Shown: piece after piece, positions 7,403 to 54,646 of the stretch
Layout of the letters: each line of letters begins with the position of its first letter
Position numbering within the stretch: position 1 is the first letter of the stretch
Assembly (NCBI RefSeq): GCF_000002865.3
Contig: NW_001865039.1
Coordinates: 1,082,504 to 1,146,503, forward strand
Length of the DNA: 64,000 bases
Direction: 5' to 3'
Source of the DNA: Monosiga brevicollis MX1
Lineage: Eukaryota > Opisthokonta > Choanoflagellata > Craspedida > Salpingoecidae
Position numbers and translations under genes: made by a program
Notes under the pieces: model-generated
Databases searched by the model: none
Told to the model about the DNA's origin: nothing
Seen by the model: the letters and a program-made list of their open reading frames with translations, nothing else

Positions 7403-8702
7403 ATGATAATGGCGGCGACGCCGATGCCGGCAGCCAGAATCGTGTCGGTGGCTGTTTACGAGGATATCCATGACGCTCTTGCTGCAGTGCCGTTGGGACA
7501 CGAGCAGGACCGTCAGGCGCTCTACCTCACGCTTGCCGAGAAGCATGGGCTTCCCCTTGAGGTAGCTCACCTGTCACCTCGTGCTGCTGCACTGCGGACA
7601 AAGGTTCAAACCAGTCAACACAAACTTGGTGCCTCACGCGCGACTGCCCCGCCCGTCATCTCAGACCATTGCGTCACTCAGTGCTGCACTTTTACGACAA
7701 TGGATTCCCAAAAGGGAGAAGGAAGTCAAGCCCGACCAACGGCGGCAGGTGTTTGAGCGGTATCGCAAGCTACCACCCGTGCGTCGTTTTGCTCAGCAAC
7801 AGCTGACCTGCTTTTGCACTCGATGGGTTTCCCTTGATCATCCATCTGAGACTCTTGCGCCCACCCACGTGCCCACGAATGTATTCACGCGTGTAAGTGC
7901 GTTGTTCTCACTGCCGTTTCTTGCCCACGCCGATTACAAAAATTAGGAGCGCTTGGTCCCTGACATGTTTTGCCGGCTGGCCCAAGAGGAAGGGCGGACG
8001 CCCGTGCGCATCATCAAGGACATTCTGTGCCGACTCATCTCCTTTCAAGATCGCCTCCGCAATGTGACTCGCACCATCACCCAGAACAAGCAGTTGGCCA
8101 AGTCCCTTCTGCGGCATCCCGAGCAACTGCGGACCAGCGAGCTTTTCGCCACCGATCAAGAACTCGAGGCCTTTTTGGAGGCCATGCAACTGGCGTTTCA
8201 GGTTGAGACGTGTGAGGGACCCCTCCGACTTCAGGAGGCCAGCGAGATTGGTCAAGCCTACGAGGACCGTCTGCTTCATGACTGTTCCACGCTTGCCGTC
8301 CGCATCATGGACGAGAACCTATGCCGCGCCGTCGGGCTGAACGTAACTCCAGACGTTCGTTTTCCGTTTGCCATTCCCTGTGCTGGGCTGGCCGTCACGT
8401 GGATGGATTCCAAAGCCCTTTTTGCTGATGCTCCAACCATCGTGGATCACCTCGCACATCAGTTTACGCGTTATCAACGCTTGCTTGGTGCTGGCATTGC
8501 CGTCTACTGGTTTGGTTTCGTGGCTCAAGTGCCTCGTCAATTGGCCAAGGCACACAACCTAGAGGTTCGCGATGATGACCCAGAACTTGTGGACACGATC
8601 GAGCTTTGTCGGCGCCACCTGGTTCTGCCCGTCGTGTCTTGTCCTCGAGCTGAGCTAGAGCGTGGCCTGGCGCACTTGAAAAACGCGTACACCAGTCTCT
8701 GA
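7403..8702 (+). CDS. CDIN1: CDIN1-type PD-(D/E)XK nuclease (CDAN1-interacting nuclease)
   Basis: Exons 7403..7561, 7665..7892, 7947..8702, all phase 0; 380 aa. The C-terminal half carries the family signature: VTPDVRF (the 'TPD' motif), then LAVTWMDSKALFAD, matching the animal HWIESKASFGD active-site strand with acidic and Lys residues, then GIAVYWFGFV. The N-terminal part is helical and aligns loosely with the animal helical region. Human CDIN1 (C15orf41) is a nuclear/cytoplasmic protein that binds codanin-1 and is mutated in congenital dyserythropoietic anaemia; the enzyme class is restriction-endonuclease-like. This copy is about 100 residues longer than the human protein, mostly N-terminal. 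An in-frame ATG at 7334 would add a Phe run encoded by poly-T; 7403 is preferred. Confidence 0.88.
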
Positions 8703-40919: not shown

Positions 40920-45397
<4,478 letters not shown>

Positions 45398-51116: not shown

Positions 51117-51529
51117 TCAAAGCCGCCCTCCCTCTTCCCAAATCAAACCGTGTTTAGAAAATCCATCCAGAGCCTCCTCCCCCCGCCCGTCATGTCATGT
51201 CCGCCATAAAGAAGATGAAGCAATCTTCAAGAGCCAAGACCAGAACAAAGAAGAGAAAAGAACAAAAAGAAAACAAAACAAAGAAAAACGCCTCCTCACA
51301 CACACTCACACACACACACACACACACACACACGCTCGAGTCCTCCAAAACACACACACACACACACACAAAGCAAGAATTGCAATCTTCAAAAAGAACA
51401 AAAGAGGAACATCGCGTGTAAGCGGAAAAAAGCAAGCAAGTAAGCCAAATCCCTTTCTTTCCCTTTCCCTTTCCCTTTCCCTCTCTCTCTCTCTCGTGTG
51501 CAGTTTTCGATCGGGCATCACCAAGTGTC
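51117..51529. repeat. (CA)n microsatellites and (CCCTTT)n tract
   Basis: Intergenic. Two (CA)n blocks (about 51298-51332 and 51351-51371), then a CCCTTT tandem (about 51451-51480) running into (CT)n (51481-51496) 35 bases upstream of the GPx ATG. Frames across them are not coding. Confidence 0.9.
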
Positions 51530-52530
51530 ATGAAGTCGAACCGAGCGGTCGCCCCGGTGGCGGCCTGCCTCCTGGCTTTCTGCCTGGCGGTCAACGGCTT
51601 TGGGCTCTTTGATTTTAAGAACCTGGTCGACATTGAGGGCCATGTTGTGGACCTCGATCGCTACGCGGGCAACGTGACCCTCGTCATCAATGTCGCGTAC
51701 GGCCTCGCACCCCGCCTCCATCCCTTGCTTGACCAAAGAGATTAAATTTTGTCGATCGCTCGACCTTGTCATCGTCTTCTTCCTCATGGCGCTGCCCACG
51801 GTCCCCTGGCCTTGCAGGTCTTTCTGAGGCGAGACCAAAATGAGCTACGAAGGCATGTCGAAGCTCTACACGCGCTACGCGCACCAACCGTTCACCATTC
51901 TTGCTTTTCCCTGCAATCAGTATGACAAGCAAGAGCCCAAGAGCAACGCCAACATTGAAAAGTTTGTGCGTGGCAACGGCACCCACCATTGTGGCCTGGT
52001 TTACTGCGATTGGACTGGTTACTTCCCGTACCCGCTCTTTGCCAAAACCAATGTCAAGGTCAGCCCTGCTGCCGTATTTTGATGAAACGAACGATCGCGT
52101 GGTGCCCTTGTGTTGGCACCTGTGTGGCTTTTCCTATTTCCCGCGCTTGAGTGACCTCAGCCATCGCTCACCAATCCTGGCCCTGCCCCGCAGCCCTCCT
52201 GGTGCACCGAAAGCAATTCTTCATGCACGGCGAGCAGCAGCGACTGCTGCCCCAACAACCAAATCGTTTGGGAGTGGCTGTACAACAATGTCACCCAACA
52301 AGATGCTCCGCGTTGGAACTTTGCCGGCAAACATCTCTTTGACAAGTGCGGCTTTTCCCGTCCCACCGCTCACCCACTTTGCCGTCAGAATTGACCCGCT
52401 CACCTGTGTTTGCTTGGTGCCCGCCATGCCTTGCAGGTGTGGAAACCACATCAAGTATGTCAACGATGAGACCGTTGATCCATACAGCCTGTCGCCCGAC
52501 ATTGATCAACTCTTGAACCAGACGTGCTGA
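51530..52530 (+). CDS. Secreted glutathione peroxidase, selenoprotein (in-frame TGA)
   Basis: Exons 51530..51696, 51818..52058, 52194..52345, 52437..52530; all phases agree; 217 aa counting Sec. Signal peptide VAACLLAFCLAVNGFG. Reduces peroxides with glutathione or thioredoxin. Across intron 1 the protein reads LVINVASF, then TGA (51825-51827), then GETKMSYEGMSKLYTRY, exactly the GPx NVAS-x-U-G-x-T active site, so the TGA should encode selenocysteine. The rest of the catalytic set is present: FPCNQYDKQEP (Gln) and RWNFAGKHLF (Trp, Asn). An unusual Cys-rich segment (SWCTESNSSCTASSSDCC) lies before QIVWEWLYNN. It ends CGNHIKYVNDETVDPYSLSP...NQTC and TGA stop. A SECIS-like hairpin lies 56 bases after the stop. 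Gene finders that read TGA as stop will split it. Confidence 0.9.
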
Positions 52531-52585
52531 GTGCAGACCGTCTTGCATCTTTGTGGCAAACTGCCACTGGCCTATTTGAAGAGGA

Positions 52586-52651
52586 CCAGCCCTTGTGAAG
52601 CTGCGTTGTGAAACCTTGCGGTACAACGTCGGTCGATTTAGCCAGGGCTCA
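52586..52651 (+). promoter_or_regulatory. Candidate SECIS element in GPx 3' UTR
   Basis: Hand-folded hairpin. Basal helix AGCCCT (52588-52593) pairs with AGGGCT (52644-52649). The 5' core GTGA (52595-52598) faces CGAT (52634-52637), the SECIS quartet with its tandem G-A. Helix II CTGCGTTGT (52601-52609) pairs with ACAACGTCGG (52623-52632), one bulge. The apical loop begins GAAA (52610-52613) and has a CC/GG mini-stem, as in form II SECIS. The spacing from core to AAA (12 nt) is typical. No folding program was run. Confidence 0.75.
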
Positions 52652-53152
52652 GCTCAACACGTGATGAGGTAGCCCTTTTTGGAAGACGAAGAACGGCGTC
52701 ATTCAAAAAATCCTCAGCCCACGTGTTGCTGAACCTGGTGGCTGCTTTCCTCAGACAACAGCATTGGCATGCCCATGAAGATCCTTCCCTCCCTCAACTT
52801 GCCTGCCGACTCGCTATGTGCGTGCGTCGATATCTTTCGTGCGTTGCCACTCGGGTCGCTCTGCGAGCTGAATTGAGGCTTTGTTGAAACACTACTCAAG
52901 CCACCCGTCGGCGGCCAGCAACATTGATCACAGCGCCTTGCTGACTTGCTTTGCCACGTGCTCCAACGCAAACTCTACCTAAACCATAAAACACTAATGT
53001 GCCCTGCAAACAAACAAACACAAGACGCTAATACCCAACAACCAAACCGGCCTTTTTGACCACCGCACAGCAGCTCACTCCTCTTGAACATTCGCCCAAG
53101 AGCTGGGAAAACAACCAGTAGGGAAGGCATGGCAAATAGCACCGCGCGCGCA
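52652..53152. other. Convergent intergenic region
   Basis: About 500 bases between the SECIS and the TTC33 stop. Nothing further is recognised. Confidence 0.5.
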
Positions 53153-54221: not shown

Positions 54222-54646
54222 CTAGCTCAATCAACAGAAGAAGAAAAAAGACGTTGCTGCGCACAAATGAACAAGAAAAGAGAGGCAGAGACAGAGACGG
54301 CAGAGGCAGAGACAGAGACAGCGGCAGAGACAGCGGCAGAGACAGAGACAGAGACAGAGACAGAGACAGAGACAGTGGCAGAGACAGAGACAGAGACAGA
54401 GACAGTGGCAGAGACACAGACACAGACACAGACACAGACACAGACACAGACACAGACACAGACACAGACACAGACAGAGAGAGGGAAAGTCAACAAACGC
54501 TTTTTCATCGTTTTGTCAGCAAACGACCATCACACCAAGCCGTTGGGCGGTTGAACGTTGCTGAATGATCGGATGAGTGACGAGATCCGGCGCTGCCATT
54601 TCGTGTTCCAGTCTATGAAGGACGGTACACAGCACTCTGGCCAATC
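54222..54646 (+). repeat. Compound GACAGA / GACACA tandem repeat
   Basis: From about 54283 to 54484: mixed GAGACAGAGACAGCGGCA units, then pure GAGACA, then GACACA repeated about ten times. The gradual unit change suggests point mutation followed by expansion. It lies between TTC33 and the transposase-derived gene, and its Glu-Thr or Asp-Arg frames are not genes. Confidence 0.9.

Follow-up and report, generated by a model that had tools for sequence, protein, structure and literature searches.

The glutathione peroxidase (GPx) gene found in the window, by which we mean the whole 64,000-nucleotide stretch of Monosiga brevicollis DNA analysed, is in our opinion a genuine selenoprotein gene. We put the probability of this at about 95%. 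From the sequence, its in-frame TGA is predicted to be decoded as selenocysteine (Sec) by way of a type II SECIS element and the Sec machinery of the organism. The initial annotation had already proposed that this TGA is read as Sec, a proposal now supported by genes for the Sec machinery in the genome and by a SECIS-like element 3' of the gene. The coordinates of all features are collected in Table 1.

Gene structure and active site of the Monosiga GPx

Splicing by reading frame of positions 51530-52530 on the plus strand yields a GPx gene of four exons, separated by introns of 121, 135 and 91 nt, all of which are GT-AG. The spliced sequence of 654 nt comprises 217 codons and a TGA stop, and contains a single internal stop. 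This stop occupies the catalytic position of GPx, homologous to the known Sec site, and is followed by open frame. The in-frame NVASF-TGA-GETK that the initial annotation had read after removal of intron 1 is confirmed as codon 59; the 130 or more residues claimed beyond it amount to 158, and the other catalytic residues, which had been described as intact, are indeed found, the Gln in QEP and the Trp-Asn in WNF. We take the catalytic tetrad of GPx to be Sec/Cys, Gln, Trp and Asn, in GPX4 numbering; the corresponding codon 59 TGA, Gln94, Trp177 and Asn178 all lie in the spliced frame.

The spliced protein matches the GSHPx family profile (Pfam PF00255) with 86 bits against a cut-off of 27. A phmmer search of the PDB returned 41 distinct sequences at E up to 0.001, headed by designed GPX4-like proteins and GPX4/PHGPx chains, with GPX7/8 and other GPx following. 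In three of the PDB alignments, the WNF region forms only a weak second stretch (3.7 to 7 bits), owing to a Cys-rich insertion ahead of WNF; the alignments with the GPX1-type chains 2f8a and 1gp1 run through this region. The four Cys of the insertion (52194-52259), unaligned to PDB relatives, possibly form disulfides or act as resolving Cys. The protein is probably secreted, as judged by eye from one feature, its signal-like hydrophobic N-terminus; the insertion and the signal-like start together suggest an exported enzyme. Simple repeats occur before the gene (window 51290-51500; CA, TTTCCC and CT types) and beyond it (window 54280-54480; CAGAGA and ACACAG types).

A PF00255 search of the 39.47-Mb, 57-contig genome, of which the window is C56:1082504-1146503, identified three places: the window gene, with one TGA inside, and two paralogues (C36 and C50), both of which have Cys at the TGA column, reading AGQCGLA and NVASECGYT. 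No relatives of the window GPx were found in the viral contigs scanned. One M. brevicollis GPX sequence is reported to group with animal PHGPX/GPX4 (PMC9925728), and in M. brevicollis a gene for a glutathione peroxidase is reported to be induced by Pseudomonas aeruginosa (PMC8592570).

Table 1. Features of the GPx gene (window coordinates) and of the Sec system of M. brevicollis (contigs of the assembly, C)
Feature	Position	Strand	Remarks
GPx exon 1	51530..51696	+	ATG at 51530; signal-like N-terminus; last codon split (Ala of NVA); GT donor at 51697
GPx exon 2	51818..52058	+	Carries the proposed Sec codon and the FPCNQYDKQEP motif; six-frame GSHPx match with 1 TGA inside
GPx exon 3	52194..52345	+	Begins with the Cys-rich insertion; WNF motif further on
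GPx exon 4	52437..52530	+	Terminal TGA stop at 52528-52530
In-frame TGA, proposed Sec59	51825..51827	+	NVASF-U-GETK; Cys at the aligned column in both paralogues found
Alternative acceptor AG	51843..51844	+	Would remove 27 nt, the TGA and catalytic motif included; not preceded by a pyrimidine tract
Proposed catalytic Gln94	51930..51932	+	QEP motif; spliced frame
Proposed catalytic Trp177-Asn178	52314..52319	+	WNF motif; spliced frame
SECIS-like element, type II form	52588..52649	+	Helix I AGCCCU/AGGGCU; structure-and-motif scan
GUGA core	52595-52598	+	Part of the SECIS-like element
Apical AAACC	52611-52615	+	Part of the SECIS-like element
3' core CGAU	52634-52637	+	Part of the SECIS-like element
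tRNA-Sec	C55:481253-481338		65.7 bits (gathering score 47); anticodon UCA by ARAGORN
SepSecS	C20:202079-203616		Seven exon matches
eEFSec	C42:534230-534762		Domain III exons; adjoining GTPase part readable by eye
SBP2	C20 near 122.9 kb		Three joined exons against PDB SBP2: 98 residues, E 4.5e-18
PSTK	C56 near 2.296 Mb		PF08433 weak, 19.9 bits; three joined pieces against TIGR03575: E 5.5e-15
SPS (SPS2)	C47		Four exon matches; FRLTDYAKLKG-U-G, then CKVPQ across an intron; only the N-terminal piece joined
SelW	C48		MAQPVNVHVVYCGA-U-GYLSK (YCGA-U-GY); Rdx 66.5 bits
TrxR	C53		Terminates in SADAAGC-U-G-stop; alignment with the GCCG termini of TrxR/TGR chains gives a best E of 2.3e-74
SelM	C51		ESCSG-U-RLNKLPEARHFV (CSG-U-RLNKL); Sep15_SelM 68.6 bits; E 4.2e-15 against selenoprotein M in the PDB
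SelK	C53		Start MPYIQNGVVHQGERSIFRLSIFSEVFWGIINFFYLF, PF10961 34.2 bits (cut-off 23.3); end PPMGGG-U-GR-stop 0.5 kb on

A SECIS-like hairpin downstream of the GPx gene

The region 3' of the gene contains a hairpin, unmentioned in the initial annotation, which begins 57 nt after the GPx stop and reads AGCCCU-UGUGAA-GCUGCGUUGUG-AAACC-UUGC-GG-UACAACGUCGGU-CGAU-UUAGCC-AGGGCU. It has the features of a type II SECIS: a tandem G.A core, helices I and II, and a bulged AA beneath a small apical helix. Its core has the form GUGA rather than the commoner AUGA.

The scan was made with a custom scanner in place of SECISearch3, the pattern being AUGA or GUGA, 9-14 nt to AA, a foldable helix II, GA and helix I. 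It should be noted that the strict form was devised after the GPx site had been spotted by eye, and was loosened after the SelW site had been spotted in the same way. Under the strict form, the GPx hairpin is the most stable of 9 matches on both strands of the 64-kb window; under the looser form, it is second among 17 window matches, the more stable one lying at 7570 on the minus strand. When the 800 nt past the GPx stop were dinucleotide-shuffled 2000 times, 92 of the shuffled sequences contained any match and none contained one as stable. The centroid fold has the SECIS form. Free folding of the hairpin is only modestly unusual (z of -2.0 for 62 nt and -1.4 for 81 nt), and the minimum-energy fold of 250 nt of the GPx 3' region keeps helix II and replaces helix I by another pairing. 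The Rfam SECIS models gave no match in the window at the gathering score and, between 51500 and 54500, none with an E of 10 or less; four weak Rfam matches in 52531-52730 were all to other families, none to SECIS. Inspection by eye also suggested a hairpin with a long lower stem (CAACACGTG/CACGTGTTG) at about 52650-52735, which was rejected because it has no 3' GA. When the first three SECIS were aligned with MAFFT, the GPx 3' arm came out misaligned, and these alignments were discarded.

The stop codon of the GPx gene is itself UGA, and its short spacing from SECIS helix I may spare it from recoding. UGA codons so near a SECIS are poorly recoded; the terminal UGA could therefore act as a stop.

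Sec machinery in the genome

The initial annotation had suggested a genome search for the Sec machinery, whose absence it regarded as grounds for abandoning the Sec reading. The search was run and was positive, which excludes that outcome: genes for tRNA-Sec (UCA), PSTK, SepSecS, SPS2, eEFSec and SBP2 are all found in M. brevicollis. Weaker places in the tRNA-Sec search lie on C57 (37.6 bits; mitochondrial tRNA-Ser by ARAGORN) and on C51 (19.6 bits), and the same search of control genomes gave some match in 14 of 14 and a match above the cut-off in 5 of 14. A 3-kb part of C57 contains three tRNA genes. For SBP2, the L7Ae exon alone is weak (E 0.05; E 0.28 to PDB SBP2), and L7Ae matches other than that on C20 were read by eye as other proteins of the L7Ae family. 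The PSTK score falls under the whole-protein cut-off of TIGR03575 because the query is partial; the best PF08433 match (C56:1407824, 238 bits) was taken as KTI12, not PSTK.

An SBP2 motif is already listed for M. brevicollis in PMC2746813. The tRNA-Sec identified here contradicts a report in which choanoflagellate genomes yielded no such gene: a screen with tRNAscan-SE 2.0 at default settings detected tRNA-Sec in Capsaspora and neither in S. rosetta nor in M. brevicollis (version 1, 218 scaffolds) (PMC6188563). According to PMC5330540, tRNAscan-SE 1.23 has a sensitivity of 67.5% and RF01852 one of 98.8%; a false negative in that screen is therefore plausible.

Other likely selenoprotein genes and a common hairpin motif

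TGA codons are present at known Sec sites in five more genes, SelW, SPS2, TrxR, SelM and SelK. The list is a lower bound, obtained with the profiles PF00255, TIGR00476, PF10262, PF08806, TIGR01438, PF01625 and PF10961. The Sec region of SPS2 was aligned with LKGCSCKLPQ of a selenophosphate synthetase structure (5l16) and with LKGTGCKVPQ of SPS1. The start and end exons of SelK were read separately rather than as one spliced frame, and the second and third PF10961 matches (C19 and C55) were not recognised as SelK by eye. The terminators are TGA in GPx, TAA in SelW, TrxR and SelK, and TAG in SelM, in each case at or soon after the end of the homologues. The end of SelM, HAEL (SelM locus positions 1887-1919), resembles an ER-retention signal. 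Cys forms are represented by Sep15 (C52, CNC), MsrA (C5, GCFW) and the two GPx paralogues; a TGA counted in the PF01625 match lies, by eye, beyond the MsrA GCFW exon piece and not at the active site.

All six genes (GPx, SelW, SPS2, TrxR, SelM and SelK) are followed on the sense strand by a GUGA/AA(A)C/NGAU match, which lies between 65 and 527 nt into a tested stretch of 800 nt; for SPS2, this stretch starts at a TGA judged by eye to be the gene end, the exact stop not being fixed. The motif (GUGA, AACC or AAACC, NGAU) was defined on GPx, SelW and SPS2 and widened slightly for the count, which took in 17 loci and the window on both strands. TrxR, SelM and SelK matched it after its definition, SelK with AACU, and the SelM gene was noticed through its hairpin match. 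The scanner returned 48 matches in 322,614 strand-bases, 8 of which carry the motif: those of the six genes and two others, at 44549 (+) and 25877 (-) of the window, with no selenoprotein gene recognised by eye alongside. The latter, read by eye, sits within a RAD50-like gene. Since the motif hairpins of six of six genes fall within 527 nt, against two elsewhere in about 322 kb, their placement is not due to chance.

The strict scanner gave no sense-strand match for SelW, SPS2 or SelM. The SelW hairpin is weak alone (85 of 2000 shuffles had a match as stable), as is that of TrxR (some match in 444 of 2000), and the SelK helix has only isolated pairs in its upper part. The motif itself appeared in 3 (GPx), 1 (SelW), 8 (SPS2), 22 (TrxR), 2 (SelM) and 6 (SelK) of 2000 dinucleotide shuffles of the respective 800 nt. 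The loci examined for the Cys forms, namely both GPx paralogues, Sep15 and MsrA, contain no motif match.

Alternative explanations of the TGA

One base parts the TGA from the Cys codons, and the Cys in both paralogues would fit a Cys-type GPx altered by sequencing error or by a dead mutation, or a pseudogene. We consider this very improbable, given 217 codons without any other stop or frame break, three clean introns, and a hairpin just 3' of the gene whose type is common to five other genes with Sec sites and is missing from the Cys loci examined. Slightly less probable still is that the TGA is bypassed, either by a product that is merely an N-terminal fragment or by splicing to another acceptor. 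With the frame followed by hand, five AGs lie between the acceptor used and 51900, and only that at 51843-51844 would keep the frame. Use of this AG, which no pyrimidine tract precedes, would delete the catalytic motif, whereas the acceptor assumed for intron 1 ends in CCTTGCAG, as does that of intron 3, and is close to the CCCCGCAG of intron 2; in addition, bypass leaves the SECIS-like element and the Sec machinery unexplained.

In-frame TGA in six genes could also be expected if TGA were a general sense codon reassigned in this genome. In the genes read, however, the in-frame TGAs stand at established Sec positions, GPx itself terminates at TGA, and SelW, TrxR, SelK and SelM at TAA or TAG, at or soon after the ends of their homologues, and the UCA tRNA found is tRNA-Sec. 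Reassignment is, in our view, the least probable of these alternatives, with a likelihood close to nil.

A selenoprotein GPx thus remains the preferred reading, and the mechanism is ordinary eukaryotic Sec insertion. The mRNA would be spliced from four exons, and the type II SECIS (GUGA, AAACC, CGAU) in its 3' UTR would be bound by SBP2, which would recruit eEFSec carrying Sec-tRNA(UCA). Translation would then insert Sec at the UGA of codon 59 and stop at the terminal UGA. The enzyme, probably exported, may reduce peroxides at a Sec59/Gln94/Trp177/Asn178 site. We infer the recoding, the presence of the hairpin in the transcript, the export and the peroxidase activity from these sequence features.

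Significance

The data point to a complete-looking Sec system in a choanoflagellate, whose likely selenoproteins number at least six, among them SPS2 itself and a TrxR with a GCUG end. The interest of the result lies in the organism, in the contrary published statement and in a SECIS type held in common with a sponge. Genes of this kind are prone to misannotation at the TGA. The local SECIS consensus offers a means of finding the remaining selenoproteins, and whether a model relative of animals depends on selenium can now be tested directly. Among the papers listed in a literature search, none describes choanoflagellate selenoproteins in its title or abstract opening; supplements or other papers may list them, and no priority is claimed.

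Comparison with known systems

The Monosiga elements share with type II SECIS of the GUGA_AA variant the GA/GA core, a helix II of 8-10 pairs and an AA located 12-13 nt past the core, and the GPx element has the small apical helix as well. They differ in the fuller consensus of the six genes, GUGA-N12-13-AA(A)C with NGAU, and in the silence of the Rfam models in the window. The GUGA-type SECIS of M. brevicollis resembles that of a sponge and of certain green algae: according to PMC3473315, GUGA_AA accounts for 12 of 21 sponge SECIS and for most SECIS of some green algae, and almost all other invertebrate SECIS are AUGA. A GU before GA is described as rare in eukaryotes in PMC11227280. The GUGA type (GUGA-N12-13-AA(A)C, NGAU) might be ancestral in the lineage of choanoflagellates and animals, the AUGA of other animals being a later, SBP2-coupled takeover. 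This reading, based on six M. brevicollis genes and the 12 of 21 GUGA_AA elements in one sponge, is speculative, and we hold it to be rather unlikely.

The Cys paralogues on C36 and C50 are, like the window GPx, GSHPx members with aligned active sites, and share 31 and 40% identity with it over the compared piece. They differ from it in having a Cys codon in place of the TGA and no motif match in their loci.

To judge by eye, the Monosiga GPx has no clear counterpart of the tetramer-interface segment of GPX1-3. With the Sec GPx of animals (GPX4/PHGPx; GPX1-3 and 6) it has in common NVAS-x-U-G, FPCNQ-x3-QEP and WNF, and its best PDB matches, apart from the designed GPX4-like proteins, are mostly GPX4/PHGPx chains. 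Unlike these animal enzymes, it has a signal-like N-terminus and, in front of the helix that precedes WNF, a Cys-rich insertion about 22 residues long.
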